A stretch of DNA of 64,000 nt from Janthinobacterium sp. TB1-E2. GTDB taxonomy: Bacteria; Pseudomonadota; Gammaproteobacteria; Burkholderiales; Burkholderiaceae_D. A model generated the notes under the pieces. The model was not told the DNA's origin. It saw only the letters and a program-made list of their open reading frames with translations, and searched no databases. The DNA lies in assembly GCF_036885605.1 (NCBI RefSeq), contig NZ_CP142523.1, positions 3,162,001-3,226,000 on the forward strand, written 5' to 3'. Made by a program: the position numbers and the translations under genes. This document shows positions 4,417 through 24,809 of the stretch, in pieces (within the stretch, counting starts at the first letter, position 1; every line of letters begins with the position of its first letter).

Positions 4417-4449
4417 AAAAAAACAGCCCCGGATGGTGGCCCGGGGCTG
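4417..4449 (-). terminator. Rho-independent terminator of the aga operon
   Basis: On the minus strand, CAGCCCCGG (4441-4449) pairs with CCGGGGCTG (4424-4432) through an 8-nt loop and is followed by seven T residues (4423-4417). It lies 33 bp after the stop of the MFS permease gene, so it is the natural end of the six-gene minus-strand operon and insulates it from the APC permease gene. Confidence 0.93.
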
Positions 4450-4481
4450 GAAAGGAGACTGCTACAGTTGGTTACTCTGGC

Positions 4482-6269
4482 TTACTTGGCAAAGTGCGCT
4501 TCGATCTCTTCCAAGGTCTTGCCCTTGGTTTCGGGGAGCAAAAACGCTGCCGCCAGGAAATACAGCACCGTGCAGCCGGCGCCAAAGAAGAACAGGGTCG
4601 AATAGCCGTGCAAGCCCACGGTCGGCAGGAAGATGGCGGCGATCACCGTCGAGACGAACTGGTTGACGAGCAGCGCGATGCTCATGCCGTTCGAGCGGAT
4701 GCGCGTCGGCATCAGTTCGGACAGGGCCAGCCACACGCACACGCCCGGTCCCACGGCAAAGCTGGACACGAACACGCAGATGGCAATGGCCACCAGCCAG
4801 CCGTGCGTCGACGAGGGCACGGGGCCCAGGCTGGCCTTCTCGATGCGCAGCGGCGCTTCGCGCCCGGCGGCCGGGTCGGCGAACGGATTCAGGTGCAGCT
4901 TGCGGAAGAACACGCCGATCACGCTGTCAGGCTGCACGGCGTCGTCGCGGGCGATCGTCACCTGGCGCAGCACGGGGTCGTCGCTGCGCAAGCTTTTCAC
5001 GTTGGTGAACGGGCCGTAGGCGTAGGCGATGGTCAGCTGCTGCGGCGTGCCGTCGGCCGCCGCGCCCAGGGCCGTCAAGGCGGCCGCATCGAGGTTCAGG
5101 GCCAGGCCATCGGCCTGCACCTGCGCCGCGATGGCGGGGCGCACGTCGATCAGATGGGCTTCGGCGCCGCGGAACAGCAGGCCGGCCGCCAGCAGCGAGA
5201 CGACGATGCCGCCCGTGCCCAGCATCAGCAGGAACTTGCGGCCCTTGCGGTCGACCAGCAGCACGGCCACCACCGTCATCACGGCATTGAGTACTTTCAG
5301 CAAGACGTCCGCCATGTTGGCCGAGGCGCCCGACAGGCCGGCCTGGTTCAGGATATTGACGACATAAGCGAGGATGGAATTGATGCCCGTCGCCTGCGTG
5401 CAGGCGAGGATCAAACAAGCGAGCAGGAAGGGCAGCACGTAGCGGCGGCTCAGCAGTGGATCTTTCGCCTTGCCGCTGGCCTTGGCTGTATTCTCGGGCG
5501 TATCTTGCATCTCGCGCAGCTCGACGTCGGCGGCGGCGGGCAGGCGCGTGCGCAGCAGCGACTGGCGCGCCAGCTCGATGCGGCCCCGTTGCGCCAGCCA
5601 GCGCGGCGACTCGGCCAGCAGCAGGGCGCCGACGGTAAACACGAGGCCCGGCGTCAGACAGACCCAGAAGATGCTGCGCCAGGCCTGGTCCTTGGCCGTG
5701 AAGATGGCGGCAATGCGGCCCGCTTCCGGCAACGCTTGCGCCGCCTGCGTGGCCGTTTCCACCGTCTGCGCCTGCATCAGGCCGATCAGGGCGGCCGCCA
5801 CCAGGCCGATGGTCAGCAGCAGCTGGAACAGGGCGGCGCCGCGTCCACGCTGCTGCGCGGGCAGGCATTCAGCCAGGTACAGGGGCACGACGACGCCGAT
5901 CAAGCCGCCACTGATGCCTTGCAGCAGACGGCCCAGCAGCAGCGGCGTGTAGCCGTCGGCCAGCGCGATCAGCGGGATGCTGGCGCTGAACAGGGCGCCG
6001 GCCAGGAACATCACCCAGCGCCGGCCCAAGAGGTCGGCCAGGGCGCCGGCGAACAGCGACGACAGCACGGAACCCAATAGCACGGCGGCGACGATAAAGC
6101 TCAGCTGCTGGGCCGTCAGTTTCCAGGCCACGGAGGCCGTCGATTCCAGGTAGGGCAGGGCGCCGGCGATGATGCCGATGTCTATGCCGTACAGCAATCC
6201 CCCCATGCCGGCAATAAATAGCAGGTAGCGCATGGCCCACACGGGGGCCTTGTGTGACGTGTCGTGCAT
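4482..6269 (-). CDS. Sugar-porter MFS permease with periplasmic insert, likely GalNAc uptake
   Basis: A 595-residue major-facilitator transporter of the sugar-porter family, larger than the usual 450-480 residues. Landmarks: FAGALADLLGRRWVM (residues 73-87), ESPRWL (220-225), QATGINSILAYV (292-303), VDRKGRK (339-345), VGPGVCVWLALSELMP after helix 10 and a terminal PETKGKTLEEIE. An extra segment of about 120 residues (roughly 368-489) lies between helices 9 and 10. By MFS topology this loop faces the periplasm; a shorter insert follows helix 5. It is last in the aga operon, 35 bp after agaA, so it most likely moves GalNAc or galactosamine across the inner membrane, the role called AgaP in other Proteobacteria. 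Specificity is inferred from position only. The start at 6269 was preferred over a 101-codon upstream extension that lacks similarity. Confidence 0.85.
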   Translation of the reverse strand: MHDTSHKAPVWAMRYLLFIAGMGGLLYGIDIGIIAGALPYLESTASVAWKLTAQQLSFIVAAVLLGSVLSSLFAGALADLLGRRWVMFLAGALFSASIPLIALADGYTPLLLGRLLQGISGGLIGVVVPLYLAECLPAQQRGRGAALFQLLLTIGLVAAALIGLMQAQTVETATQAAQALPEAGRIAAIFTAKDQAWRSIFWVCLTPGLVFTVGALLLAESPRWLAQRGRIELARQSLLRTRLPAAADVELREMQDTPENTAKASGKAKDPLLSRRYVLPFLLACLILACTQATGINSILAYVVNILNQAGLSGASANMADVLLKVLNAVMTVVAVLLVDRKGRKFLLMLGTGGIVVSLLAAGLLFRGAEAHLIDVRPAIAAQVQADGLALNLDAAALTALGAAADGTPQQLTIAYAYGPFTNVKSLRSDDPVLRQVTIARDDAVQPDSVIGVFFRKLHLNPFADPAAGREAPLRIEKASLGPVPSSTHGWLVAIAICVFVSSFAVGPGVCVWLALSELMPTRIRSNGMSIALLVNQFVSTVIAAIFLPTVGLHGYSTLFFFGAGCTVLYFLAAAFLLPETKGKTLEEIEAHFAK

Positions 6270-6304
6270 GGTAACTCCGGGACGGGGTTGAGGTTGTGGA
6301 TGGT

Positions 6305-7399
6305 CTAGCGGGTGGAAAGATCGATGGCCGTGCCTTCGACGAAGACGGACACTGGCTGTAATTGGGAATCGAGGACGACGATATCGGCCCAGGCGCCCGG
6401 TGCCAATCGGCCCCGTTCGGATTCGCCCAGGTAGTCGGCCGGGTACAGCGACAAGCGGTTCGAGGCGTCGGCCAGGTCCAGGCCCAGGTCGACGAAATTG
6501 CGCAGGGCCTGGTCCATGGTCAGCACGCTGCCGGCCAGGGAACCCGTGGCCAGGCGCACGCAGCCCAGGCATTTGTAGACGCGCTGCGTGCCCAGGCCGT
6601 ATTCGCCGTCCGGCATGCCGGTGGCCGAGGTGGCATCCGTCACGCCGTACAGGCGCGGGATGGCGCGCAAGGCCGCGCGCAGGGCGCCCTTGGCCACGTG
6701 CTGCAGGTCGGGGATGATTTCCGCATATTCGGCATGCGCGAGGGCCGCGCCCACCATGCCCGGGTCGTAATGCGTCATGCCCGTCATGCCGTTGTACAGG
6801 TGGGTAAAGCCGGACACGCCGGCGTTCAGCGCCGCCACGCCTTCGTCATACGTGCCGGCGCTGTGGCCGATCTGCACGCGGATACCCATCGCCGCCAGTT
6901 GCGGGATCAGTTCCAGGTGGCCGGGGATTTCCGGCGCCATGGTCAAGACCTTGATGGGGGCGATGGCGTGGAAGCGCTGCACCAGCGCCAGGCTGGCCTG
7001 CACGACGTCGGGCGGCTGCGCGCCCAGGCGATGCAAATTCAAAAACGGGCCTTCCAGGTGCACGCCCAGCATGCGCGCGCCGTTGGCTGGGCGCTCGGCG
7101 ATGACGCCGGCCAGGCCTTGCAGGGCGCGCAGGATCGACGGTTCCTTGGCTGTCAGGGTCGTGCCCAGCAGGGCCGTGGTGCCGTGGCGCGCGTGCACTT
7201 GCGCCACGGTGGCGCCCGCGTTCCCGCCTTCCATGATGTCGACGCCGGCCGCGCCATGCACGTGCAGGTCGATGAAGCCGGGCAGGATGGTCAGCGCGCT
7301 GTCGGCGGCAGGGTCTTCTTGTATCTGGACGATGCGCTGGTCAAAGGTGATGGTGCCCGTGATCCAGCCAGATGGGGTAAGGATTCTGCCGCTCAGCAT
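6305..7399 (-). CDS. agaA: N-acetylgalactosamine-6-phosphate deacetylase (NagA/AgaA family)
   Basis: A 364-residue amidohydrolase that removes acetate from N-acetyl-hexosamine-6-phosphate in the cytoplasm. Metal and catalytic residues are visible: DLHVHG with His46 and His48, HLEGPF with Glu116, QIGHS with His179, FTHLYNGM with His200, and the catalytic Asp255 in TDATSATG. The fold is complete, including the C-terminal GAWADIVVLD strand. The sequence alone cannot separate GlcNAc-6-P from GalNAc-6-P deacetylases. The neighbours agaS and agaZ and the alpha-GalNAc-releasing enzymes across the divergent promoter favour GalNAc-6-P. The start is 3 bp after the agaR stop, which implies coupled translation. 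Confidence 0.9.
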   Translation of the reverse strand: MLSGRILTPSGWITGTITFDQRIVQIQEDPAADSALTILPGFIDLHVHGAAGVDIMEGGNAGATVAQVHARHGTTALLGTTLTAKEPSILRALQGLAGVIAERPANGARMLGVHLEGPFLNLHRLGAQPPDVVQASLALVQRFHAIAPIKVLTMAPEIPGHLELIPQLAAMGIRVQIGHSAGTYDEGVAALNAGVSGFTHLYNGMTGMTHYDPGMVGAALAHAEYAEIIPDLQHVAKGALRAALRAIPRLYGVTDATSATGMPDGEYGLGTQRVYKCLGCVRLATGSLAGSVLTMDQALRNFVDLGLDLADASNRLSLYPADYLGESERGRLAPGAWADIVVLDSQLQPVSVFVEGTAIDLSTR

Positions 7400-7402
7400 G
7401 TG

Positions 7403-8170
7403 TTATTCCGCTATAAAAAGTTCGATGCCCAGCTTTTGCAGCCCTTCGCGGTACTCCTGGCTGATGCTGGCATCGGTGATGACGGTATCGACCCGGTCCA
7501 GCTGCACGATGCGGTGCAGGCTGACGCGGCCGAACTTCGAGGCGTCCGTGAGGACGATGATTTTCTTCGCCCGTTCCACCATCTTGTGGTTCAGGCTTGC
7601 TTCCGCTTCGTGGTGGGTGGTGACGCCGAACTGCAGATCGAAGCCGTCGACGCCCAGAAACAGCTTGTCGAAGCTGTAGGCCTGCAGACAGGTTTCCGCC
7701 TGGCTGCCCTGGATCGACAGCGACTGCTTGCGCAGCAGGCCGCCCGTCAGGATCAGGTCCACGCCGGGCGCGTCGGCCAGTTCCCACGCGATGTTCAGGC
7801 CATTCGTGGCCACCGTCACGCCCGTCGCATCGCGCAGATGGCGCGCCAGCGAGATGGTGGTGGTGCCCGAGTCGATGATGATGTTGTCGCCCGGTTCCAC
7901 CAGCCGCGCCGCATAGGCGCCGATGCGCTCCTTCTGCTCGTGGTTGATGGCATCCTTCTGGCGTATCGTGTGTTCAAGCGGGGGCGTGCGCGTCAGGGTC
8001 GCGCCGCCGTGGCTGCGCGTGGCCATGCCTTGCGCTTCCAGCGCATTCAAGTCGCTGCGGATGGTGACAGCGGACACGCCGAGCTTTTCCACCAAGTCGG
8101 TCACTTGCACCGAGCCCTGCTGGGCAAGCATTTGGAGGATGGATTCACGGCGTTGGCTGGTATTTCGCAT
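7403..8170 (-). CDS. agaR: DeoR-family transcriptional repressor, AgaR-like
   Basis: A 255-residue DeoR-type regulator. The N-terminal winged helix (residues 5-57) has the recognition stretch DLVEKLGVSAVTIRSDLNAL, and the C-terminal sugar-phosphate-binding domain starts with IIDSGTTTISLARHL near residue 100. DeoR regulators of this kind release DNA on binding an intermediate of the pathway they control. It sits inside the aga operon between agaZ and agaA. TTTCG-containing repeats resembling known AgaR operators occur in front of agaS and in front of both plus-strand GalNAc units. It therefore probably autoregulates and controls the whole locus; this link is inferred. A 27-bp hairpin lies just upstream. 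Confidence 0.9.
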   Translation of the reverse strand: MRNTSQRRESILQMLAQQGSVQVTDLVEKLGVSAVTIRSDLNALEAQGMATRSHGGATLTRTPPLEHTIRQKDAINHEQKERIGAYAARLVEPGDNIIIDSGTTTISLARHLRDATGVTVATNGLNIAWELADAPGVDLILTGGLLRKQSLSIQGSQAETCLQAYSFDKLFLGVDGFDLQFGVTTHHEAEASLNHKMVERAKKIIVLTDASKFGRVSLHRIVQLDRVDTVITDASISQEYREGLQKLGIELFIAE

Positions 8171-8178
8171 GGTGGCGG

Positions 8179-8205
8179 GCTCGGTAAAAAGTGAAAATAC
8201 CGAGC
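8179..8205 (-). promoter_or_regulatory. Intercistronic hairpin between agaZ and agaR
   Basis: A perfect 8-bp inverted repeat, GCTCGGTA (8179-8186) and TACCGAGC (8198-8205), with an A/T-rich 11-nt loop, fills nearly all of the 35-bp gap between the agaZ stop and the agaR start. There is no T run, so it is more likely an mRNA-processing or stability stem, or a partial attenuator that lowers agaR output, than a full terminator. Confidence 0.6.
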
Positions 8206-9552
8206 TTAACAGATTGCCGCTTCGGCAATGACGGGGACTGCCGCATTGCGGTTGCAGGCGCGCGCATATTGCGCCAGCAAGCTGCCGATCTTGTGCTCGA
8301 TCAGGGCCGGCGCCTGTGCCGGCAAACTGCCCTGCACCACGGCCAGATACTGTTCCGGCAAATGCTGGCTCAGGAGCGGCAGCGGAATGGCCACCGTGTC
8401 CAGGTTGGCCAGCAGCTTGGCGACGGCGGCCGCCACTTCCGGCTCGCCCCAGTAATAGCGGCAACGGTCGCTCAAGCCGTAGCGGCGCATCAGGCGCTGC
8501 TCGTCCGGCGTGCCCAGGTAATGCTTGATCCAGTTCTTCGGCTTGGCCACCATCACGTCGTCGAGCACCTGCATCAGCTGCGAGGTGGCGTGCGCCGGCA
8601 GCAGTTCTTCCTCGATCTGGCACAGCGCGAACAGCGCCTCGCGCAGCGCGAAGGTGGCGGCCGGGCCCACTTTCAGGATGGCGAAATGGTCGCGCACCAT
8701 GGCGTGCAGCGCCGTTTCGCGCTGGTAGTCGGTGGAGTGGGCTTCGAACACGAGGCCGGGCTGCTCGGCGACAAAGGCCGACAGTTCTGTGGCGGCATCG
8801 GCATCGTAGTGCTGGATGCTGCTCTGGTCGAAATCAACGCCAGGCTGCACCACCATGGCGATGACGCGGCGCCAGGCGCCATGCAATTCCTTGTCGAGGA
8901 AGGCGCGGCGGTGCACGTCGAGCGTACGGCGCGCCGCTTGCGGGCTGGTGACGGCGCCGGCTTGTGCCAGCGATGCTTCGCCGCCGGGAACCGGTACTTC
9001 CGTACCGATCACGTAGACGGGCGGCGCGAAGCCGGCGGCCGCCGCCGCTTCCTCGGCGACGATGCACAGGCGCGCCGAACGGGCGGCCACTGTTTCATCG
9101 TCGAGCTGCAAGGGATCGTCGGCACAGCGCATGCTGCAATCGAGGTGGATCTTATGGAAGCCGGCCGACGCATACGCGGCGATCAGGGTTTCGGCGTGGT
9201 TCATCGCGGTGGCCGCATCGAGGTGCTGCCAGGCGTTCGGCCCCAGATGATCGCCGCCCAGCACGAGGCGGCTGGCGGGGAAACCCTGTTCACGGGCCAG
9301 TGCCAGCATGGTGTCGCGGAAAACGGCCGGCGTCATGCCCGTGTAGCCGCCGAACTGGTCGACCTGGTTCGACGTCGCCTCGACCAGCAGCACCGTGTCG
9401 TACTCGCTGGCCACGCGCATGGCGGCGCGCAGCACGCTCGGGTGGCTGCAGCAGACGGCGTACAGTCCCACGCGCTCGCCGCGGCGGTGCGCCTTGATCA
9501 CTTGCTGGATCGGGGACAGGGTAAAAGTCGGGTTTTCCGCTTGCTTCATCAT
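8206..9552 (-). CDS. agaZ: AgaZ/GatZ/KbaZ-family tagatose pathway protein
   Basis: A 448-residue protein of the GatZ/KbaZ/AgaZ family. It has family stretches such as SNQVDQFGGYTGMTP near residue 60, GGDHLGPNAW near residue 100, KIHLDCSMRC near 135, and EAHSTDYQ with HFAILKVGPAATFALREA in the C-terminal half. The family was first described as the accessory subunit of class II tagatose-1,6-bisphosphate aldolases, and has also been proposed to phosphorylate tagatose-6-phosphate; the sequence does not settle which. No gatY/kbaY catalytic aldolase is in this window. Two tandem ATGs (9552 and 9549) follow the stop of the kinase gene after 2 bp, so translation is coupled. Confidence 0.88.
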   Translation of the reverse strand: MMKQAENPTFTLSPIQQVIKAHRRGERVGLYAVCCSHPSVLRAAMRVASEYDTVLLVEATSNQVDQFGGYTGMTPAVFRDTMLALAREQGFPASRLVLGGDHLGPNAWQHLDAATAMNHAETLIAAYASAGFHKIHLDCSMRCADDPLQLDDETVAARSARLCIVAEEAAAAAGFAPPVYVIGTEVPVPGGEASLAQAGAVTSPQAARRTLDVHRRAFLDKELHGAWRRVIAMVVQPGVDFDQSSIQHYDADAATELSAFVAEQPGLVFEAHSTDYQRETALHAMVRDHFAILKVGPAATFALREALFALCQIEEELLPAHATSQLMQVLDDVMVAKPKNWIKHYLGTPDEQRLMRRYGLSDRCRYYWGEPEVAAAVAKLLANLDTVAIPLPLLSQHLPEQYLAVVQGSLPAQAPALIEHKIGSLLAQYARACNRNAAVPVIAEAAIC

Positions 9553-9554
9553 GT

Positions 9555-10502
9555 TTACGCCTTTGTATGTTGTCGTATCAAAAGGGCCGCGCCGCGTGCG
9601 CCGCCGGCGTCGCCAAAGCGGGGCGGCAGAATCGGCGGCACGTGCACGCCGGGGAACAGATGGCGTTTCACGGCGGCCGGCAGCTTGTCGTACAGGTGCG
9701 GCAGTTTGGACAGGCCGCCGCCAAGCACGATGACGTGCGGGTCGTAGGCCAGCACGAGGCCGGCCAGCGCGTGGCCCAGTACGTCGAGGTGCACGGCCAC
9801 CGTGCGCTGGGCCACGGCGTCGCCCATGTTGGCGCGGGCTACGATGGCCAGAGGCTCGGCGCCGTCGCCGCCAAAGTGCATATGGAGTTTGCGCATGGCG
9901 GGGCCGGAGACGTAGCGTTCCAGGCAGCCCGTCTTGCCGCACGGGCAGTCGTAACCGGCCAGGCCGTGCTGCGCCAGCAGGGTGGCGGGCAGGCTCCAGT
10001 GACCCCATTCGCCGGCCACGCCGTTAAAGCCGCGCAGCAGCTGGCCGCCCACGCAATAGCCGCCGCCGGCGCCCGTGCCGAGGATGGCGCCGAACATGCT
10101 GGCGGCGTTGTCGGCCGCGCCGCCTTGCGCTTCCGACAGGGCGAAGCACTGGCAATCGTTGCCGATGCCGACAGGGCGCTGCAAGGCTTGCTGCAGGGTT
10201 TGCGCCACGAGGCGGCCGTTCAGAGCCGGCACGTTGGAGCTGAGCTGGCGGCCGCTGGCGCTGTCGATCACGCCGGGCAAGCCGATGCCGACGGGTGCCG
10301 TCGTGCCCAGCACCGCGTCGCCGTGCGCCACGAGGTCGACGATGGCTTGCACGAAGGCGGCAAAATCGTCGCCCGGCGTGGCGACCCGTTCGCGGAACAC
10401 TTCCGTCAGCGCGCCATCGCAGTCGGCAAACGCCACCAGCTCCATCTTGCTGCCGCCGATGTCGATGCCGTGGTAGCCGGCTGTGTGATTAGAATTGGTC
10501 AT
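9555..10502 (-). CDS. ROK-family N-acetylhexosamine kinase (AgaK-like)
   Basis: A 315-residue cytoplasmic sugar kinase of the ROK family. The phosphate-binding loop GIDIGGSKMEL begins at residue 12. A central GIGNDCQCFALSEA segment carries the catalytic-region Asp, and CPCGKTGCLE at about 184-193 is the ROK zinc motif. In this operon it would make GalNAc-6-phosphate from GalNAc and ATP, the substrate of AgaA. ROK kinases include GlcNAc, ManNAc and fructose kinases, so the substrate is assigned by context. The first 14 bp overlap the end of agaS. An alternative ATG lies two codons earlier (10508). No ribosome-binding site is evident, which is consistent with translational coupling. Confidence 0.85.
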   Translation of the reverse strand: MTNSNHTAGYHGIDIGGSKMELVAFADCDGALTEVFRERVATPGDDFAAFVQAIVDLVAHGDAVLGTTAPVGIGLPGVIDSASGRQLSSNVPALNGRLVAQTLQQALQRPVGIGNDCQCFALSEAQGGAADNAASMFGAILGTGAGGGYCVGGQLLRGFNGVAGEWGHWSLPATLLAQHGLAGYDCPCGKTGCLERYVSGPAMRKLHMHFGGDGAEPLAIVARANMGDAVAQRTVAVHLDVLGHALAGLVLAYDPHVIVLGGGLSKLPHLYDKLPAAVKRHLFPGVHVPPILPPRFGDAGGARGAALLIRQHTKA

Positions 10503-11637
10503 GGCCATAGATGGTGACGCCTTGCACGACACGGTTGACGATGCCGCCGGCGAATGGATTGTCGGGGCGCAGTTGCAGTAGTGCGGACTGGTGCAGCGCA
10601 TATTGCTGCGCCATCAGCAGCCACAGCGGGGCCAGCCAGGCGTCGGGCCAGGCCGGCGCATCGGCCGACAAGGTGGCAGATAAGTCGCCGCCGATGCCCA
10701 CCGTCAGGCAGCGCTGCGCCACGCTGTCGCGCTGCAGTTCTTTCAATAGGTCGTCTTCGTACTGGCGCGCCAGCGGCTTGCTGCTGCGCAGCAGGATCAC
10801 CAGCGACTCCGTGGTGACGGCCGATTTCGGGCCGTGGCGGAAACCCAGCGGCGTATTCGCCATCGCCATCACTCTGCCGCCCGTCAATTCCAGGATTTTC
10901 AATGCGGCTTCCTTGGCCAGCGCTTCCAGCGGGCCGCTGCCCAGGTAGACGACGCGCTGTACGGGTGTCGAACCCAGGTCCGCCACAGGGGCCGACCAGT
11001 CGCGCAAGGCGTGTCCACCCAGCTGCGCCAGGGTGTCCAGGCGAGACAGATCCGTGTCCTTGCCCAGTACGGACAGGGCGGCCAGCAGCATGCTGCTGAA
11101 ACTGCTGGTCATGGCGAAGCCGCGGTCGCAGCTGCCTTCCGGCATCAGCAGATTATAGGTATTGCTGTCGTTTGCGCCCTGGCGCGCCAGCTTGCCGTCC
11201 GCATTGCAGGTGATGTTCAGAAAGCGCGCGCCGGGCACGACCTGGCGCAGCAGCTCCACGGCCGCCAGGCTTTCCGGGCTGTCGCCGCTGCGGGCAAACG
11301 AGACGAGCAGGGTGGGCGCGTCCGCTTCCAGGTATAGCTCATGGTGCGTCAGCAAAGTCGTGGTGGCGATGGCGCGGATCTGCGCGGGCCAGGCCGCATT
11401 CAGGGTATCGACGACGATTTCGCCCACATAGGCCGAGCTGCCGGCGCCCGTCAGGATGACGCGTTGTTGTGGGTTCGACAGCGCGTCGCCGAGGAAGGCG
11501 GCCAGTGTCGCTTGCTCCTTGCGCAAGATGCCGGCCAGCGCGCGCCAGATGGCTGGCTGGTGGGCGATTTCCTCGGCCGTGTGCAGGCCGCCGATGTCGC
11601 GCCAGGTTTGAATGTCACGCTGAAGAAGGGTAGTCAT
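10489..11637 (-). CDS. agaS: Galactosamine-6-phosphate deaminase/isomerase (AgaS)
   Basis: A 382-residue protein with two SIS (sugar isomerase) domains, close to the ~384 residues of E. coli AgaS. SIS domain 1 carries VILTGAGSSAYVGEIV near residue 60 and LLVSFARSGDSPES near 110; SIS domain 2 begins around residue 220 with VVYLGSGPLEALAKEAALK. The N-terminal HTAEEIAHQPAIWR matches the lead-in helix of the AgaS group. AgaS converts galactosamine-6-phosphate to tagatose-6-phosphate plus ammonia. It is the first gene of the operon, 30 bp behind a good minus-strand promoter that overlaps operator repeats. There is no convincing Shine-Dalgarno sequence before the ATG at 11637. Confidence 0.88.
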   Translation of the reverse strand: MTTLLQRDIQTWRDIGGLHTAEEIAHQPAIWRALAGILRKEQATLAAFLGDALSNPQQRVILTGAGSSAYVGEIVVDTLNAAWPAQIRAIATTTLLTHHELYLEADAPTLLVSFARSGDSPESLAAVELLRQVVPGARFLNITCNADGKLARQGANDSNTYNLLMPEGSCDRGFAMTSSFSSMLLAALSVLGKDTDLSRLDTLAQLGGHALRDWSAPVADLGSTPVQRVVYLGSGPLEALAKEAALKILELTGGRVMAMANTPLGFRHGPKSAVTTESLVILLRSSKPLARQYEDDLLKELQRDSVAQRCLTVGIGGDLSATLSADAPAWPDAWLAPLWLLMAQQYALHQSALLQLRPDNPFAGGIVNRVVQGVTIYGHDQF

Positions 11638-11666
11638 GAGAGGTCAGTAAAGTGTTTGTTGGAGAA

Positions 11667-11695
11667 AGCATAAATACTAAATTTCGAAAAGTCAA
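11667..11695 (-). promoter_or_regulatory. Promoter of the agaS operon
   Basis: On the minus strand, a -35 box TTGACT (11695-11690) is separated by 17 bp from a -10 box TATGCT (11672-11667). The -35 box lies inside the cluster of CGAAA/TTTCG repeats at 11682-11721, so a repressor bound there would block RNA polymerase. The predicted transcript starts near 11660, giving a leader of about 23 nt before agaS. Confidence 0.75.
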
Positions 11696-11721
11696 ATACG
11701 AAAGTAAAACGAAAGTAAATA
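11682..11721. promoter_or_regulatory. Operator cluster 1 (AgaR-type TTTCG repeats)
   Basis: Within 40 bp there are three CGAAA units (starting at 11685, 11699 and 11710), read as TTTCG on the other strand. Direct TTTCG repeats are the core of known AgaR operators in enteric bacteria. The cluster covers the agaS -35 box. All three unit positions recur exactly 6,763 bp away in front of the second TonB receptor, the third unit there only as AACG. Assignment to AgaR is inferred. Confidence 0.7.
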
Positions 11722-11817
11722 GTTGGGCGACTTGCGAAATAATGTCGTTTAAACGGCCAGGAAGCATGCTGCGGTGCAGCGCAAAAGCTAGTGGCGGCGC
11801 GGTATGTCGCGGAAATG

Positions 11818-11833
11818 CCACGATAACGAAAGT
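11818..11833. promoter_or_regulatory. Operator 2, conserved 16-mer
   Basis: The 16-mer CCACGATAACGAAAGT is repeated without change at 18581-18596. It contains one CGAAAG unit and ends 88 bp before the -35 box of the GH31 gene. Sequence on either side has diverged between the two copies, so this 16-mer has been conserved as a functional site, probably for AgaR. Confidence 0.7.
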
Positions 11834-11893
11834 ATGTTTTGTGACATTTTGGTGAAACGTAAGAAAAATGGGCCAATTCTGGGCATTTTATTA

Positions 11894-11950
11894 ATAAATT
11901 GCCGCTTTAACTTTCTTTTGATTGACGATGTTTATTTTTCTTCTTAAAGT
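11894..11950 (+). promoter_or_regulatory. Promoter and proximal operator of the GH31 gene
   Basis: A -35 box TTGACG (11922-11927), a 17-bp spacer and a -10 box TAAAGT (11945-11950) predict a transcript from about 11957, with a 28-nt leader before the ATG at 11985. AACTTTCTTTT just upstream of the -35 box, and further TTTTTCTT runs in the spacer, resemble the TTTC repeats of AgaR operators. Of these 57 bp, 50 are identical to 18657-18713. Confidence 0.75.
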
Positions 11951-15357: not shown

Positions 15358-15390
15358 AAGAGCCCCTCTTCGGACCGGGGAGGGGCTCTT
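15358..15390. terminator. Stem-loop between GH31 and TonB-receptor genes
   Basis: An 11-bp perfect stem, AAGAGCCCCTC (15358-15368) and GAGGGGCTCTT (15380-15390), lies 22 bp after the GH31 stop. The flanking A run (15355-15359) would be a T run only for minus-strand transcription. On the plus strand it may be a weak terminator or an mRNA 3'-end stem that tunes the receptor gene relative to the glycosidase. No separate promoter is evident before the receptor gene. Confidence 0.6.
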
Positions 15391-15433
15391 GCAACCTGAC
15401 GAAAACAAATCACTTATAAAAAGGGAGTTGAGT

Positions 15434-18379: not shown

Positions 18380-18391
18380 TACGTGACGCTG

Positions 18392-18417
18392 CCCCGGCCC
18401 GTCTATGCGGGCCGGGG
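18392..18417 (+). terminator. Terminator-like hairpin after receptor 1
   Basis: CCCCGGCCCG (18392-18401) pairs perfectly with CGGGCCGGGG (18408-18417) across a 6-nt loop, 12 bp after the receptor stop. The following TATTGG is only weakly T-rich. It plausibly ends the GH31-receptor transcript before the next promoter. Confidence 0.72.
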
Positions 18418-18444
18418 TATTGGCATGGAAAAGAAAAGATAATA

Positions 18445-18713
18445 TTCCGAAATGTACAATACGAAAGATAAACGTAAGTGAAAGCAGAGTGCCATGGCTG
18501 CTTTCGCGTTTTTCTCCCCGTTTTTTTGCGCCGATTCACCATTTCTGCTTACCTCGCTGCAGTCGCGTGTATCTGTCATACCACGATAACGAAAGTTATG
18601 GGACGCGTCACAGATTAAATCGAAAGATAAAATGCCTTTATTTGCCGGATTTCTCGATAAATTGCCGTTATAACTTTCTTTTTGTTGACGATACTTATTT
18701 TTCTTTTTAAAGT
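18445..18713. repeat. Second copy of the aga control region
   Basis: This region copies the elements of 11682-11950 at a constant offset of 6,763 bp: the CGAAA/AACG cluster (18445-18484), the 16-mer CCACGATAACGAAAGT (18581-18596) and the proximal promoter block (18657-18713). The sequence between the blocks is not recognisably similar, so only sites and their spacing are preserved. The divergent minus-strand promoter of the first copy has decayed here (TTGTAC in place of TTGACT, no -10 box), which fits the absence of a divergent gene. Confidence 0.8.
18657..18713 (+). promoter_or_regulatory. Promoter and proximal operator of receptor 2 transcript
   Basis: A -35 box TTGACG (18685-18690), a 17-bp spacer and a -10 box TAAAGT (18708-18713) match the GH31 promoter. 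AACTTTCTTTT lies directly upstream as a probable AgaR half-operator. The predicted start near 18720 gives an untranslated leader of about 154 nt before the receptor, in contrast to about 28 nt before GH31. Confidence 0.75.
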
Positions 18714-18730
18714 AATCCCAAGAAAACGAA

Positions 18731-18786
18731 AATCAGCCGATACGGACTGATTTCCCGGAAGGTGCAACTGCCTAGAGCTACCTTCC
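18731..18786 (+). promoter_or_regulatory. Two hairpins in the receptor 2 leader
   Basis: Two consecutive inverted repeats lie in the predicted leader: AATCAG (18731-18736) with CTGATT (18747-18752), and GGAAGGT (18757-18763) with ACCTTCC (18780-18786). They could stabilise the mRNA or form a post-transcriptional control site. The rest of 18787-18873 shows only the ribosome-binding site GGAGACACACC before the ATG. Confidence 0.55.
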
Positions 18787-18873
18787 GACGACCACCATAA
18801 AAATTGCATCCCCCCGGCTTCGCCCTGGAGCGGGGAGGGCGCGCATAACCCTCGATATAGACGGAGACACACC

Positions 18874-21800
18874 ATGCATACCACCGGACTCAAATTGCGC
18901 CACATCAGCCGCGCCGCCGCGATCGTGATCGCCCTGGCGGCCGGCGTGCCAGGCCAGGCCTGGGCACAGTCGAACGCCACCAGCACCATTTTCGGCGAAG
19001 TGAGCGCACCGGCCGGCGCCACCGTGGTGCTGGAAAACCTGGCGACGGGCGTGCAACGCACCTTGACGCCCGATACGTCGGGCCGCTACGTGGCCAACTC
19101 CATGCCGCCAGGCCGCTATGCGGTGCGCGTGCTGCGTGCCGGTTCGGTGGAAGCATCGCAGGAAGTCGAAGCCCTGATCGGCGCGGGCGCGGAAGCGAAC
19201 TTCGGTCCGGCCAGCGCGGCCGGCACCGTGGGGCAGGAGCAGACCGTCGTCGTGAAAGCGTCGCGCAATCCGATCGACGTGTCGAACACGAACAACGGCG
19301 TGATCTTCACGGCCAAGGAATTGAAGGCGCTGCCGGTCGGCAATGATGTGGCATCCATCGTGCAGCTGACGCCGGGCGTCTCGCGCGGCACCAACAGCGT
19401 GTACGGCAATGCGCCATCGATCGGCGGCTCTGGCCAGTCGGAAAACGCGTTCTACGTCAACGGCTTCCCCATCACGAACATCCTGACCCAGGTGGGCGCG
19501 TCGGAGCTGCCGTTTGGCGCGATCTCGAACCTGCAGGTACTGTCGGGCGGCTATGGTTCGGAATTCGGCCGCTCCACGGGCGGCGTGATCAACATCACCA
19601 CCAAGAGCGGCGGCAACAAGGTCGAATTCGGCGGCAAGGTCTCCATCATTCCCCGTTCGCTGAAGGGCGAGCCGGAAAACACCTATTACCCGAACACGGG
19701 CGCCAATCCCAAGACGGACGGCAACCTGCTGTACTGGAACCGCGACAATGGCAGCACCAGCAAAGTGGTGGGCCTGTACGGCAGCGGCCCGCTGATCAAG
19801 AACAAGCTGTTCGCCTTCGTGGCGCTGGAACAGACGCGCACGGACAGCCAGTCCGTTGCCGCCGCCGCCGACTCGGGCACGGCTCTGGCGCGCGGCTGGA
19901 GCACGAGCCAGAGCAAGGTGGACCGCATGATGGCCAAGCTCGACTACAACCTGACGGACGACCATCACTTCGAATACACCAAATTGTATGACCGCACGAA
20001 AACAGACAGCCAGGCATATGGCTACAGCTACGCCACGCATGCAAGCAATGGCGTCCAGGCAGGCAAGGGCGAGACGACGGTCAACTGCTGCGGTTCATCG
20101 GCCGCGCCGGGCGCCAACATCGACATCTTCAAGTACACGGGCTACCTGACGGACAACCTGACCGTGACGGCCATGATGGGCGAATCGCGCACCTCGCACA
20201 CCCGCACGCCGAACGGCTACAACCCGCTGCTGGCGCAAACGTCGTCGAATACCTCGACGCAAGTCCCTGGCCTGACGTACGCCAATCCGCAAACGGTGAC
20301 GGGCACCCTGGTCGACCCGTCGTCGGAAGACCGCCAGAAAGCCAAGCGCCTGGATCTCGAATACAAGCTGGGCAAGCACTCGCTGCGCGGCGGCATCGAC
20401 CGCATCGACGTGGAATCGAAAGTGGGCCTGAGCCTGGCCGGCGGCTACCGCTGGAGCTATCAGCGCGCGACCGATCCGAACCGGGCCATCAACGGCGCCT
20501 TTGAAACGCCGGCCCAGGGCGGCGGCTACGGCGCGCAGGGCTATTACGTCAGCAAGGACTTGAACGCCAACCTGGCGCGCCCGACCAGCGTGCAATCGGC
20601 GCAATACATCCAGGACCACTACCAGGTCACGGAACGGGTGCTGCTGGACCTGGGCCTGCGCCGCGAACAGTTCACCAACTACAGCACCGATGGCGTGGCC
20701 TTCATTTCGCAGCGCAACATGATCGCCCCGCGCGTGGGCGCCACCTGGGATTACCTGGGCGACGGCACGCTGAAATTCTTCGCCAATGGCGGCCGCTACC
20801 ACTTGCCCGTGCCATCGAATTTGTCGAGCAACATGGCCAGCCCCTTCCTGGCCACCAGCGAGATGTACACGTACACGGGCATCGATCCCGTCACGGGCGC
20901 GCCGACGGGCCTGCACGCGATCAGCAAGCCGTATTCGGCAAACAATGCGTATGGCCAGAGCCGCGATGCGCGCGAAGTGACGGCCATCGGCCTGAAGCCG
21001 CTGTCGCAGGATGAATTCTCGCTCGGCTTCGAACGTGCCCTGAGCAAGAAGCTGGTGGTGGGCGCCAGCGTCCTGTACCGCAAGCTGAACGACACCAACG
21101 ACGACACCTGCGACGCGCGTCCGCTGCAAGCCTGGGCCACGCGCAACAGCGTCGACACGAGCAATTGGGGCGGCTTCCAGTGCGCCATCATCAACCCGGG
21201 CCGCGACAACAGCCTGATGGTGGACTTCGACGATGGCAAGGGCTTGCGCCGCGTGGATATTTCTGCCGCGGAGTGGGGCAATCCGAAACCGGCACGCACC
21301 TACCGCGCCCTGAACCTGTTCATCGAACACCCGTACACGAACGGCTGGTACGGCAAGCTGACCTACACCTTGTCCGGCCTGAAGGGCAATATGGAAGGCC
21401 AGACGGACAGCATCGGCGGCGGCGACGTGGGCCTGACGGTCAGCGACGACCACAAGGAACTGATGTACAACGCGTATGGCTACCTGCCGGGCGACCACCG
21501 CCACGCCTTCAAGGCCTACGGCTTCATGCAGGTCATCCCGGACGTGACGGTCGGCGCCAACCTGTCGCTGACGTCGGGCGCGCCACGCAACTGCATCGGC
21601 GCGCTGCCCGACAACCTGAAGTTCGAGAACGACTACGGCGATTCCTACTTCTATTGCGATGGCAAAGCGGCGCCGCGCGGCAGCCAGGGCCGCCTGCCTT
21701 GGCAAGCCCAGCTGGACATGAATCTGGCCTATACTCCCAGCGCCGTCAAGGGCCTGAGCCTGAAAGTGGACGTGTTCAATGTGTTCAACAGCCAGACCGT

Positions 21801-21915
21801 GACCCGCTACAACGAGACGCGCGAAGACCATGGCGCCATCGCCCGCAGCTATCTGCAGGTGGCCGGCCGCACGGCGCCGCGTTCCGTGCGCTTCACGGCG
21901 GAATACACCTATTAA
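18874..21915 (+). CDS. TonB-dependent receptor with carboxypeptidase-regulatory-like N-domain (receptor 2)
   Basis: A 1,013-residue outer-membrane receptor of the Oar-like type. A signal peptide (1-31, ending AWA) is followed by a small beta domain of the carboxypeptidase-regulatory kind (about 35-110; GEVSAPAGATVVLENLATG), then a plug (about 120-260; GSGQSENAFYVNGFPITN and YGSEFGRSTGGVINITTKSG) and the barrel. The C-terminus FTAEYTY ends in an aromatic residue, as expected. It has its own AgaR-type promoter and is followed 66 bp later by the GH109 gene. Receptors placed this way in other GalNAc loci have been called AgaO; by context this one should take up GalNAc-containing glycans. Confidence 0.9.
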   Translation: MHTTGLKLRHISRAAAIVIALAAGVPGQAWAQSNATSTIFGEVSAPAGATVVLENLATGVQRTLTPDTSGRYVANSMPPGRYAVRVLRAGSVEASQEVEALIGAGAEANFGPASAAGTVGQEQTVVVKASRNPIDVSNTNNGVIFTAKELKALPVGNDVASIVQLTPGVSRGTNSVYGNAPSIGGSGQSENAFYVNGFPITNILTQVGASELPFGAISNLQVLSGGYGSEFGRSTGGVINITTKSGGNKVEFGGKVSIIPRSLKGEPENTYYPNTGANPKTDGNLLYWNRDNGSTSKVVGLYGSGPLIKNKLFAFVALEQTRTDSQSVAAAADSGTALARGWSTSQSKVDRMMAKLDYNLTDDHHFEYTKLYDRTKTDSQAYGYSYATHASNGVQAGKGETTVNCCGSSAAPGANIDIFKYTGYLTDNLTVTAMMGESRTSHTRTPNGYNPLLAQTSSNTSTQVPGLTYANPQTVTGTLVDPSSEDRQKAKRLDLEYKLGKHSLRGGIDRIDVESKVGLSLAGGYRWSYQRATDPNRAINGAFETPAQGGGYGAQGYYVSKDLNANLARPTSVQSAQYIQDHYQVTERVLLDLGLRREQFTNYSTDGVAFISQRNMIAPRVGATWDYLGDGTLKFFANGGRYHLPVPSNLSSNMASPFLATSEMYTYTGIDPVTGAPTGLHAISKPYSANNAYGQSRDAREVTAIGLKPLSQDEFSLGFERALSKKLVVGASVLYRKLNDTNDDTCDARPLQAWATRNSVDTSNWGGFQCAIINPGRDNSLMVDFDDGKGLRRVDISAAEWGNPKPARTYRALNLFIEHPYTNGWYGKLTYTLSGLKGNMEGQTDSIGGGDVGLTVSDDHKELMYNAYGYLPGDHRHAFKAYGFMQVIPDVTVGANLSLTSGAPRNCIGALPDNLKFENDYGDSYFYCDGKAAPRGSQGRLPWQAQLDMNLAYTPSAVKGLSLKVDVFNVFNSQTVTRYNETREDHGAIARSYLQVAGRTAPRSVRFTAEYTY

Positions 21916-21981
21916 ACTGCAGCCGGCCTGCCGTGCGGCGGACCGGCGACGATCATTACCAATGGAAGCGAGAAGAGACCA

Positions 21982-23373
21982 ATGACGACACAAATCAATC
22001 GACGCAATTTCCTGTCCGCCAGCGCCGCGCTGGCCGGTGGCGCCATGACCGGCAGCGCACTGCTGCCTGGCGAGGCCAACGCCGCACCCGCCGCCGGCCG
22101 CGACAAGGTCCGCCTGGGCCTGATCGGCACGGGCATGCGCGGCCAGGTGCTGCTGGCCGAACTGGTGCGCCGCGACGACGTGGAAGTGGTGGCCCTGTGC
22201 GATATCGAACCGATCATGCTGAAACACGCGCTGGGCCAGGTGGCCAAGGCCGGCAAGCCCCGTCCGCGCACGTATGGCGAAGACCGCGACCAGAAAGCCT
22301 ACAAGCGCATGCTGGACGCGGGCGGCCTCGATGGCGTGATCATCGCCACGCCGTGGGAATTCCATGCGCCGATGGCGATCGCCGCCATGCAGGCGAAGAT
22401 CGCCGTCGGCTGCGAAGTGGTGGCCGGCATCACCCTGCAAGACCACTGGGATGTGCTCAATACCCAGCTGAAAACGGGCACGCCGTACATGTTGCTGGAA
22501 AACGTGTGCTACCGCCGCGACGTGATGGCCGCGCTGCAGATGGTGCGCGCGGGCCTGTTTGGTGAACTGCTGCACCTGCAGGGCGGCTACCAGCACGATT
22601 TGCGCGCCGTGAAATTCAACAGCGGCAATCCGGCCAAGCCATATGGCGGCGGCGTGGAGTTCGGCGAGAAGGGCTGGTCCGAAGCCCATTGGCGCACGCA
22701 GCACTCGGTCGAGCGCAATGGCGAGCTGTATCCAAGCCACGGCATCGGTCCGTGCGCCATGTACACGAACATCAACCGCGGCAACCGTTTTACGCGCATC
22801 AACGCCTTCGCCACCAAGGCGCGCGGCTTGCACGACTACATCGTCAAGCAGCCGGGCGGCGCGCAGCATGCGAACGCCAAGGTGAAATTCAAGCTGGGCG
22901 ACGTCGTCACCACCACGCTGGCGTGCGAGAACGGCGAAACCATCATCCTGCAGCACGATACGAGCTTGCCGCGTCCGTATTCGCTGGGCTTCCGCGTGCA
23001 AGGCACGGACGGCCTGTGGATGGACTTGAACAATTCGATCCATATCGAAGGCGTCAGCAAGCCGCACCAGTGGGACGACTTCAAGGCTTACCAGGACAAG
23101 TATGAGCATCCGGTGTGGCGCAAGTACGCGGCACAAGCGGAAGGCGCTGGCCACGGCGGCATGGACTTCTTCGTCATCCACGCCTTTGTCGAAGCGCTCA
23201 AGGCCAACGCGCCGATGCCGATCGATATCTACGATGCCGTGACGTGGAGCGCCATCACGCCGCTGTCCGAGCAATCGATCGCCGCCAACTTCCAGACCCT
23301 GGACTTCCCGGACTTTACGGGCGGGCAGTGGAAATCGCGCAAGCCGATCTTCGCCCTCGACGGCAAGTACTAA
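21982..23373 (+). CDS. GH109 alpha-N-acetylgalactosaminidase, Tat-exported
   Basis: A 463-residue NAD-dependent glycosidase of family GH109, related to Gfo/Idh/MocA oxidoreductases. These enzymes remove terminal alpha-GalNAc, for example from blood-group A type structures, by transient oxidation with a bound NAD that is not consumed. A twin-arginine signal, INRRNFLSA, is at residues 4-12, with a hydrophobic stretch and cleavage near ANA-AP (33). The Rossmann motif VRLGLIGTGMRG follows at about 43-54. Also visible are CDIEPIMLKHA, WEFHAPMAIAAM, and MLLENVCYRRDVMAALQMVR near residue 175, a conserved GH109 stretch. The start follows AGCGAGAAGAGACC. A strong terminator follows. Tat export fits folding with NAD in the cytoplasm first. 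Activity on GalNAc is strongly supported by the aga operon nearby. Confidence 0.9.
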   Translation: MTTQINRRNFLSASAALAGGAMTGSALLPGEANAAPAAGRDKVRLGLIGTGMRGQVLLAELVRRDDVEVVALCDIEPIMLKHALGQVAKAGKPRPRTYGEDRDQKAYKRMLDAGGLDGVIIATPWEFHAPMAIAAMQAKIAVGCEVVAGITLQDHWDVLNTQLKTGTPYMLLENVCYRRDVMAALQMVRAGLFGELLHLQGGYQHDLRAVKFNSGNPAKPYGGGVEFGEKGWSEAHWRTQHSVERNGELYPSHGIGPCAMYTNINRGNRFTRINAFATKARGLHDYIVKQPGGAQHANAKVKFKLGDVVTTTLACENGETIILQHDTSLPRPYSLGFRVQGTDGLWMDLNNSIHIEGVSKPHQWDDFKAYQDKYEHPVWRKYAAQAEGAGHGGMDFFVIHAFVEALKANAPMPIDIYDAVTWSAITPLSEQSIAANFQTLDFPDFTGGQWKSRKPIFALDGKY

Positions 23374-23383
23374 GCTCCATTCG

Positions 23384-23418
23384 CCCGCTACCGCACCAGT
23401 TGCCGTAGCGGGTTTTTT
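23384..23418 (+). terminator. Rho-independent terminator after GH109
   Basis: CCCGCTAC (23384-23391) and GTAGCGGG (23405-23412) form a perfect 8-bp stem followed by six T residues (23413-23418), 11 bp after the GH109 stop. It ends the receptor 2-GH109 transcript. The next gene, 84 bp on, either relies on read-through or on a promoter I cannot recognise. Confidence 0.93.
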
Positions 23419-23501
23419 CTATCCACCCAGTTTTTCAACCGCGGCGCAGGTGCGCAGGCCCGTGTTCGCCCGCCGCAAAGCTGTACCACCAGGAGACGTT
23501 G

Positions 23502-24809
23502 ATGAAACACAGAAGTTCATTACTCTATGCCATCCTTCCCGCCATGCCCTTGCTGCTGGCGGCCTGCGGCGGCGCCACCGCCACGGGCAACGGCAACACG
23601 GCCTTGCTGGCGGCCAGCGTGGCGGCGCCCGCCACGACGGCGACCGTGGAACTGGCCGGTAACGCCTTCATCACCAGCGGCGACGCAGGCGCCGTCATCA
23701 ACGAACGCGGCCTGGCCGGCTGGAGCAATCCCGATGCCGTCGCCAGCACGTATTTCCGCGTGGCCGAGGCGGGCTCCGTGCAGGTGGCGCTCGACGCCAG
23801 CCTGGCCGATGGCGGCAACAGCACCATCCGCGTGAAGATCAATGGCACGCCGTTCGATGTCAAGCTGGCCGGCAAGGAGCGCAAGACCTATGCCGTCGGC
23901 ACGGTCAATGTGCCGGCGGCCGGCTATGTAAAGGTCGACATGCAGGGCCTGAAGCGCGTGAAGGGCACGTTCGGCGACGTGGCGGCGCTGAAGGTGACGT
24001 CGAACACGGCGCTCACCTATGCGAATGACCGCGCCAACTACTACTGGTCGCGGCGCGGCCCGTCCGTGCACATGGGTTATACGGTGCCGGCCAATACCGA
24101 GTATTTCTATAACGAGATGACGATTCCCCAGGGCCAGGACGCCATCGGTTCCTACTTCATGGCCAACGGCTTTGGCCAGGGCTACATGGGCATCCAGGTG
24201 AAGTCGCCGAGCGAGCGCTGGATATTGTTCTCCGTGTGGGATGCCGACAATGGCGCCAAGACCACCCTGGTCAGCAAGGGCGCCGGCGTGGTCGACAATG
24301 CGTTTGGCGGCGAGGGCACGGGCGGCCAGACCTATCTGTCGTATAACTGGGCGGCTGGCACGACGTACCGCTTCATCACGCGTGCGCGGCCCGACGGCAA
24401 TGGCGGCAGCGATTATTCGGCCTGGTTCTTCGCGCCCGAGACGGGCAAGTGGCGCTACATCGCCACCTGGAAGCGGCCGGCGATCTCCACGTATCTGACG
24501 GGCGTGCATTCCTTCCTCGAGAACTTTATCGATACCCTGGGCTACACGGAGCGCCGCGTCCAGTTCGGCAACCAGTGGGCCAGGAACGTTTCCGGGACAT
24601 GGACCGAAGTGACGGCGGGAAGGTTCACCGGCGACGCCACGGCCACGAATGCGCAGCGCATGGATTATGCGGGCGGGCTGGAAAACGGCAGGTTCTACCT
24701 GCATAACGGCGGCTTCTTCGCCGACTATGTGAAAACCAGCCAGAACTTTACGCGGCCCGCGACGGGCCAGGCGCCGGCCGTCGATGTCAGCGCCTTGCCG
24801 ATGCAGTAA
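23502..24809 (+). CDS. DUF5077/DUF3472 lipoprotein of the GalNAc locus
   Basis: A 435-residue predicted lipoprotein: the signal peptide ends with the lipobox LLAAC, so Cys23 should be lipidated. Residues about 50-175 form a beta-rich DUF5077-like domain and about 180-415 a DUF3472-like domain with repeated aromatic motifs such as WSRRGPSVHMGYTVP and GYTERRVQFGNQWARN. Both domains occur in proteins of polysaccharide-utilisation loci, without a firm function. The ATG at 23502 (AGGAG 6 bp upstream) is preferred to the in-frame TTG one codon earlier. Its placement after GH109 suggests surface binding or processing of the same glycan. The C-terminal part could be catalytic, but no active site is recognisable. 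Confidence 0.78.
   Translation: MKHRSSLLYAILPAMPLLLAACGGATATGNGNTALLAASVAAPATTATVELAGNAFITSGDAGAVINERGLAGWSNPDAVASTYFRVAEAGSVQVALDASLADGGNSTIRVKINGTPFDVKLAGKERKTYAVGTVNVPAAGYVKVDMQGLKRVKGTFGDVAALKVTSNTALTYANDRANYYWSRRGPSVHMGYTVPANTEYFYNEMTIPQGQDAIGSYFMANGFGQGYMGIQVKSPSERWILFSVWDADNGAKTTLVSKGAGVVDNAFGGEGTGGQTYLSYNWAAGTTYRFITRARPDGNGGSDYSAWFFAPETGKWRYIATWKRPAISTYLTGVHSFLENFIDTLGYTERRVQFGNQWARNVSGTWTEVTAGRFTGDATATNAQRMDYAGGLENGRFYLHNGGFFADYVKTSQNFTRPATGQAPAVDVSALPMQ

Follow-up and report, generated by a model that had tools for sequence, protein, structure and literature searches.

The closest described relatives of the system analyzed here come from Shewanella and from Bacteroides thetaiotaomicron (papers given by PMC number are cited from excerpts of their text). 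The Aga pathway of Shewanella for N-acetylgalactosamine (GalNAc), encoded by agaP, omp-Aga, agaA-II, agaK, agaS and agaO, has a permease and a kinase in place of a phosphotransferase system, together with a TonB-dependent outer-membrane transporter, a deacetylase and AgaS (PMC2996990). B. thetaiotaomicron uses O-glycoproteins with the polysaccharide utilization locus (PUL) BT4240-50 and with BT3169, which supply alpha-N-acetylgalactosaminidases (alpha-GalNAcases) of glycoside hydrolase families GH109 and GH31, a GalNAc kinase, a major facilitator superfamily (MFS) transporter and a mucinase (PMC11992087). Here we describe a locus with counterparts of both sets of components in a 64,000-nucleotide stretch of the genome of Janthinobacterium sp. 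TB1-E2 (contig NZ_CP142523.1, positions 3,162,001 to 3,226,000; hereafter the window). The genome is a single 6.31-Mb contig.

Profile scans with Pfam and NCBIfam models reveal an eleven-gene block, six genes on the minus strand followed by five on the plus strand, which is apparently co-regulated (Table 1). We read this block as a regulon, repressed by AgaR, that serves to feed on O-GalNAc (mucin-type) glycoproteins, and we give this reading a probability of about two in three. The gene content and order, the operators, the promoters, the catalytic residues and the conservation are seen in the sequence; all activities are predicted from them. The component families are already known. What is new is the proposed widening of a proteobacterial Aga regulon into a kit for O-glycoprotein degradation. 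In contrast to the Shewanella pathway, GH31, GH109, a second TonB-dependent receptor and a mucinase-like lipoprotein with DUF5077 and DUF3472 domains share the operator boxes, and the locus has no dedicated aldolase. B. thetaiotaomicron differs in that the GH31 enzyme BT3169 lies outside the PUL, the mucinase BT4244 is an M60-like metallopeptidase and uptake is of the SusC/D type; aga catabolic genes are not named in the excerpt of that paper (PMC11992087).

A contig scan with GH31 confirmed 215 relatives, of which the best 80 loci were kept; the counts on relatives refer to these. They belong to the Oxalobacteraceae, the Roseateles/Paucibacter group and the Xanthomonadaceae, with the genera Janthinobacterium, Massilia, Duganella, Rugamonas, Pseudoduganella, Roseateles, Pelomonas, Paucibacter, Stenotrophomonas, Pseudoxanthomonas, Lysobacter, Luteimonas, Vulcaniibacterium and Thermomonas and a few records labeled otherwise. 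All nine core genes (MFS, agaA, agaR, agaZ, ROK, agaS, GH31, GH109 and the first TonB-dependent receptor, TBDR1) were present in 65 of the 77 loci longer than 20 kb, and some of the remaining 12 lose the MFS gene at the edge of the fetched stretch. TBDR1 was detected in 72 of the 80 relatives. The recurrence of the locus leads us to reject a one-off assembly of genes. One record labeled Bacillus subtilis SK7B5 (L053) contains a locus of 23 kb that matches the Xanthomonadaceae loci in gene order and identity; this record is probably contaminated or mislabeled. In a metagenome-assembled Thermomonas genome (L064), GH31, TBDR1 and GH109 stand beside housekeeping genes, without aga genes and without a box cluster.

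The control regions of the block are marked by the pentamer CTTTC/GAAAG. Leyn et al. are said to have reported in 2012 multi-copy CTTTC boxes as the consensus for proteobacterial AgaR, and reportedly found such boxes in the Shewanella Aga pathway, a likeness to this locus. In the window the boxes are densest in the gap between agaS and GH31 and in the gap before the second receptor (TBDR2); the richest 300-bp intervals begin at 18401-18451 (six boxes each) and at 18351 and 11651 (five each). Both gaps share an exact 16-mer (CCACGATAACGAAAGT) and a block that contains a sigma-70-like promoter. Within the 6.31-Mb genome the only two exact copies of the 12-mer GATAACGAAAGT are in this locus. With one mismatch the 12-mer gives seven genome matches, no more than the reversed control pattern (seven), so that looser matches carry no meaning. 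At each of the three promoters of the locus the -35 element is preceded, at a distance of 4 or 6 nt, by a CTTTC box; the composite element CTTTC-N3..7-TTGAC has three occurrences in the 64-kb window, all of them at these promoters. A promoter consensus scan gave three sites in the agaS/GH31 gap (0.6 in shuffles), one of them beyond the agaS and GH31 promoters. In the gap before TBDR2 it gave a single site (0.7 in shuffles), which is not above the shuffled expectation, and the scan is therefore no evidence by itself.

The relatives have the same boxes. The agaS/GH31 gap was assessable in 74 of the 80 loci, since five (L011, L017, L021, L025 and L050) were skipped for other genes between agaS and GH31 and L064 lacks the aga genes. 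Every one of the 74 gaps contains at least three boxes, at a density of 18.2 per kb versus 0.90 per kb elsewhere in the loci. The composite element faces agaS in 72 and GH31 in 48 of these 74 loci, and 140 of its 144 occurrences in the 80 loci lie at most 400 bp upstream of one of the genes agaS, GH31 and TBDR2. Genes that have been relocated keep their box clusters: TBDR2 stands opposite agaS in L011, L017, L021 and L025, DUF3472 is found on the other strand with a cluster of its own in L023, and the cluster is kept on each side of the genes between agaS and GH31 in L050. In addition to clusters at agaS, GH31 and TBDR2, a cluster scan of the relatives found three before agaR, one before GH109 and one before DUF3472. 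Given the box density, the confinement of the composite element to locus promoters and its placement in the relatives, we reject chance as the origin of the operators; the first-pass annotation, which had claimed shared operators in the two intergenic regions, was right on this point. We infer that the locus is an AgaR-controlled regulon with AgaR encoded inside it, and predict that AgaR binds to the boxes. The control region of TBDR2 (18380-18720) resembles a duplicate of the agaS/GH31 divergent region in its entirety, an apparent decayed reverse promoter included, and it looks as if the TBDR2 unit was added via duplication of the control region.

The two glycosidases of the block match solved enzymes of the predicted activity. 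The closest solved relative of GH31 is the alpha-GalNAcase of Enterococcus faecalis (6m76, 7f7q and 7f7r; 364 bits), with the next family (6jr6) at 193 bits. Its nucleophile Asp379 corresponds to the Asp that is changed in 7f7q and 7f7r, and is an Asp in all 80 loci, as is Asp430, which we take to be the second catalytic Asp. The catalytic domain, the nucleophile and the DVAW-G-GY motif are common to both enzymes; however, the E. faecalis protein is Gram-positive and LPXTG-anchored, whereas the Janthinobacterium protein is Gram-negative, is predicted to be exported and has C-terminal CBM32-like and NPCBM domains. GH109, which combines a Rossmann domain with a C-terminal GH109 domain, is closest to 2ixa, a solved GH109 alpha-GalNAcase (489.8 bits); its Pfam match is just under and its NCBIfam match over the cut-off. 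Tyr250 and His253 of its YPxHG motif are present in 74 of 74 sequences, and a role of this Tyr and His in GH109 is assumed here. These data support the prediction that GH31 and GH109 are alpha-GalNAcases of two unrelated families. Together with the conserved linkage to the catabolic genes, they support the earlier claim of GalNAc catabolism combined with two such families. The GH31 alpha-GalNAcase of B. thetaiotaomicron (BT3169) is active on mucin and inactive on blood-group A, while its GH109, encoded at a separate locus, prefers smaller products and blood-group A (PMC11992087). These differing preferences suggest, by analogy, that the two enzymes of the Janthinobacterium locus divide labor rather than duplicate each other.

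The DUF5077/DUF3472 lipoprotein links the locus to the protein part of the substrate. Its DUF3472 fold matches HC7 (PDB 8pmu, 8pn3 and 8pn5), a di-glutamate mucinase reported from Bacillus cereus K8 that carries a CBM5 domain and cuts Tn/T O-glycoproteins (PMC13003899). The two proteins share the FGGEGTG motif, and Glu340 of the lipoprotein is the counterpart of the catalytic Glu200 of HC7; in place of CBM5 the lipoprotein has an N-terminal, CBM35/36-like DUF5077 domain and a lipobox. Glu340 is conserved in 25 of 25 aligned sequences, and so is Glu271, which aligns with HC7 Glu131 and is a candidate for the second catalytic glutamate. The alignment comprises the window protein and 24 of the 35 DUF3472 loci (34 by tblastn plus L052). 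Left out were the near-duplicates L003, L005, L006, L010, L016, L025, L036, L040 and L075, as well as L019, for which no start was identified, and L007, the extracted frame of which stopped early. On the basis of the fold and the catalytic glutamate we predict that the lipoprotein is a mucinase-like peptidase. It also goes together with TBDR2. By tblastn, 34 of the 80 loci have DUF3472 and 25 have TBDR2, DUF3472 being present in 24 of the 25 loci with TBDR2 versus 10 of the 55 without it. In nine loci outside Janthinobacterium the two genes adjoin, with 15-277 bases between the matched stretches.

The lipoprotein could instead be a glycan-binding protein or a glycosidase of a GalNAc locus, the substrate of which would be a polysaccharide or glycolipid such as a bacterial O-antigen, blood-group A-like or Forssman glycans, or fungal galactosaminogalactan. 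Its closest structure, 4qhw, carries the deposition name "putative two-domain sugar hydrolase", its N-terminal domain resembles CBM35/36, its jelly-roll core is common to glucanases and lectin-like proteins, and a GH109 relative acts on terminal GalNAc (PMC11992087). With the resemblance to HC7 on the other side, we consider a non-peptidase role unlikely, though it deserves serious attention. Of the mucin-like or blood-group A type glycans proposed at first as substrates, the mucin-like part is strengthened by the resemblance of the lipoprotein to a mucinase that cuts O-glycopeptides. The blood-group A part has no specific support, its sole basis being that the GH109 of Bacteroides acts on blood-group A, which GH31 relatives do not (PMC11992087).

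The route from GalNAc to central metabolism depends on AgaZ. In databases this protein is named a non-catalytic aldolase subunit or a tagatose-6-phosphate kinase, and a review describes it as a proposed kinase (PMC12118421). E. coli GatZ and KbaZ, members of the same PF08013 family, were reported in 2025 to epimerize fructose-6-phosphate to tagatose-6-phosphate; Asp87, His88, Glu171 and His257 were proposed as epimerase residues, and Lys279, Glu44 and Cys20 separate the family from aldolases (PMC11907403). All seven residues (E. coli GatZ numbering) are present in AgaZ of the window and are invariant in 78 of the 78 loci with agaZ. E. coli also has GatY/KbaY, whereas AgaZ of the locus stands alone. 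Among 12 locus-carrying genomes, seven had one class II aldolase match over the cut-off and one had only a sub-threshold fragment. No class II aldolase was found in the other four (L044, Luteimonas; L049, S. maltophilia D457; L052, Lysobacter; L060, S. rhizophila), a negative that depends on genome completeness, the S. maltophilia D457 record being given as complete. LacD was not found in any of the 13 genomes examined. These two negatives lead us to set aside a dedicated tagatose aldolase, and in the four genomes without a class II aldolase it is unlikely that AgaZ works as a subunit of one. The first-pass annotation had not assigned AgaZ a particular function. We conclude that AgaZ is probably a tagatose-6-phosphate 4-epimerase that makes fructose-6-phosphate directly. 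A kinase or a non-catalytic aldolase subunit, with a pathway via tagatose-1,6-bisphosphate, would agree with the database names and with the review, and the Janthinobacterium genome has a phosphofructokinase (PFK), sub-threshold PfkB-family genes and a class II aldolase. In view of the missing aldolases, the conserved residues and the C4-epimerase activity of the E. coli proteins (PMC11907403), we consider it improbable. By title and abstract no description of AgaZ as an epimerase in GalNAc use was found, most subscription papers lying outside reach.

It is still less probable that free GalNAc or small GalNAc sugars are the main substrates of the locus, with DUF3472 and TBDR2 as incidental passengers. 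Many relatives lack both of these genes, GH109 is missing from 4 of the 77 loci longer than 20 kb, and L064 has its glycosidases without adjacent aga genes. However, GH31 stands opposite agaS with boxes between them in all 74 assessable loci, and relocated genes keep their clusters. A locus for N-acetylglucosamine (GlcNAc) is disfavored, because AgaS, AgaZ, AgaR and alpha-GalNAcases are present instead of NagB-type genes.

A number of results weigh against an AgaR regulon for O-glycoproteins. Three catabolic enzymes score under curated cut-offs: AgaA slightly so (220.6 versus 225.65 bits for TIGR00221), the ROK kinase, for which no curated sugar-kinase model passed and the top NCBIfam model is GlcNAc kinase (260 bits, cut-off 380), and AgaS (401.8 versus 529.2 bits for TIGR02815). 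The TIGR02815 cut-off was reached by none of the 369 genomes of a class-wide sample; we therefore claim an AgaS-like protein from pathway position and family similarity. The lipoprotein is only about 22% identical to HC7, and the PDB entries are tied to the mucinase paper by the shared name HC7 alone. By tblastn, 46 of the 80 loci lack DUF3472 (a few are incomplete, and L052 has a divergent one), which makes the peptidase an accessory. Five of the nine DUF3472 genomes come from one genus; G113 has DUF3472 without GH31, and G048 of the same genus has neither. The GH31-side composite element is absent from 26 of the 74 loci, and a looser criterion gave 11 clusters with no listed gene nearby. GH35 was not found in the Janthinobacterium genome, so that core-1 may need another enzyme. 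Finally, a kinase/aldolase route could operate in this genome, where one PFK, one class II aldolase and eight PfkB-family matches under the cut-off were found.

As we picture the O-glycoprotein regulon, GalNAc or a derivative would cause AgaR to leave the CTTTC boxes 4-7 nt upstream of -35 at the three promoters. The DUF3472 lipoprotein would cut O-glycosylated protein chains beside Tn/T sugars, and both TonB receptors would import the glycopeptides, TBDR2 being paired with the peptidase. In the periplasm GH31 would remove Ser/Thr-linked GalNAc, and GH109 would act on GalNAc at smaller or terminal positions. Once taken in by the MFS permease, GalNAc would be converted by the ROK kinase to GalNAc-6-phosphate, by AgaA to galactosamine-6-phosphate (GalN-6-phosphate) and by AgaS to tagatose-6-phosphate; C4 epimerization by AgaZ would then give fructose-6-phosphate, so that no dedicated tagatose kinase or aldolase would be needed. 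Taken as a whole, the proposal is that an AgaR-controlled regulon for O-glycoprotein degradation, complete in itself, is present in free-living beta- and gamma-proteobacteria. In it a DUF3472 mucinase of the glutamic class would be paired with a dedicated TonB receptor of the carboxypeptidase-regulatory type for glycopeptides, peptide-linked alpha-GalNAc would fall to GH31 and terminal alpha-GalNAc to GH109, and AgaZ would lead GalNAc to fructose-6-phosphate without a tagatose kinase or tagatose-bisphosphate aldolase. In this full form the proposal is tentative, if plausible.

Two of the new predictions stand out as the most useful: that DUF3472 is a mucinase-like peptidase, and that AgaZ is the epimerase completing the pathway. 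The first supplies a testable substrate context for DUF5077/DUF3472; the second adds genomic evidence for re-reading AgaZ, from a kinase or aldolase subunit to an epimerase in GalNAc catabolism. The locus also suggests that common environmental bacteria encode the ability to feed on mucin-type glycoproteins, a trait that has been studied mainly in anaerobes of the gut, and its GH31/GH109 pair would be one more source of alpha-GalNAcases. By title and abstract, none of the literature matches listed describes this locus in Proteobacteria, most subscription papers being outside reach. The first-pass annotation had called the combination undescribed; this holds for Proteobacteria among those matches, but the combination is widespread in genomes and both enzyme types are known in B. 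thetaiotaomicron at separate loci.

Table 1. Genes and control elements of the GalNAc locus, in window coordinates.
Feature	Position	Strand	Evidence
MFS sugar porter, probable GalNAc permease	4482..6269	-	PF00083 282 bits, TIGR00879 239 bits
agaA, predicted GalNAc-6-phosphate deacetylase, NagA type	6305..7399	-	TIGR00221 220.6 bits (cut-off 225.65); Amidohydro_1
agaR, DeoR-family repressor AgaR	7403..8170	-	NF040755 331 bits (cut-off 260)
agaZ, GatZ/KbaZ family, predicted tagatose-6-phosphate 4-epimerase	8206..9552	-	TIGR02810 606 bits (cut-off 568.8)
ROK-family sugar kinase, predicted GalNAc kinase	9555..10508	-	PF00480 208 bits
agaS, predicted GalN-6-phosphate deaminase/isomerase	10489..11637	-	TIGR02815 401.8 bits (cut-off 529.2)
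agaS promoter TTGACT-17-TATGCT	11667..11715	-	CTTTC box 4 nt upstream of -35, second box behind
Exact 16-mer CCACGATAACGAAAGT	11818..11833	+	repeated at 18581-18596
GH31 promoter TTGACG-17-TAAAGT	11911..11950	+	CTTTC box 6 nt upstream of -35
GH31, predicted alpha-N-acetylgalactosaminidase, exported	11985..15335	+	F5/8C (CBM32-like) and NPCBM domains; signal peptide by eye
TonB-dependent receptor 1 (TBDR1)	15389..18379	+	PF00593, PF07715
Second operator/promoter region, upstream of TBDR2	18461..18713	+	boxes 18463, 18480, 18501, 18591, 18622, 18674
TBDR2 promoter TTGACG-17-TAAAGT, as at GH31	18685-18713	+	
TonB-dependent receptor 2 (TBDR2)	18874..21915	+	CarboxypepD_reg, plug and OMP_b-brl_4
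GH109, Tat-exported, predicted NAD-dependent alpha-N-acetylgalactosaminidase	21982..23373	+	PF21252 280 bits, PF01408, Tat signal
DUF5077+DUF3472 lipoprotein, predicted di-glutamate O-glycopeptidase (mucinase)	23502..24809	+	lipobox seen by eye

The genes named in the first-pass annotation were present and intact in the order it gave, and its coordinates agree with the Pfam/NCBIfam scans within the choice of start codon; several starts, including those of the MFS permease and agaR, were taken from translations. Its locus edge at 4417 was wrong, as the stop codon of the MFS gene ends at 4482. The MFS permease has an insert of about 120 residues that separates its two matched sugar-transporter stretches. 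For TBDR2, the domain set of which we take to be Oar-like, no solved relative was found by sequence.

In the class-wide samples (369 genomes) DUF3472 was found in one genome, that of the window, GH31 in three and AgaS above 300 bits in four. Weaker AgaS matches occurred in 208 genomes, mostly in 600-residue frames, and a strong AgaS match lay beside GH31 in all three genomes with GH31. With DUF3472 confined to the one genome, these samples are no independent test of its link to the locus. Weak DUF3472 matches (30-106 bits) occur in G030, G062, G084, G103 and G107, and as a second match in G069; either the genome lacks this GH31 or the match is on a different contig. Those of the DUF3472 homologs listed that are named are from Janthinobacterium. 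DUF3472 has been reported as a domain of unknown function in centipede venom (PMC7864903), and a viral fold library gave weak matches only, the best of them named DUF3472 of Vesanto virus; the link to HC7 suggests an O-glycopeptidase role for these venom and viral proteins.

Twenty hand-picked frames, out of those listed for 19 loci, were scanned as neighbors. One is a DUF3472 protein fused to a ricin-type (beta-trefoil) lectin domain, between TBDR1 and GH109 (L052:17200-18891); another such fusion within the GalNAc locus is L051:17787-19502. Among the twenty, GH35 genes lie downstream in L051 (19187-21340) and L067 (19978-22113), and a GH20 gene lies downstream in L037 (17701-19722); both families are possible extensions of the same glycan pathway and would fit partly trimmed O-glycoproteins. 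L014 has an M35-type peptidase, and the other frames were not related to glycans or had no Pfam match. Downstream of the Janthinobacterium block, at 27324-36863, two MFS genes are followed by the alpha and beta subunits of a respiratory nitrate reductase, apparently with no relation to the GalNAc locus.

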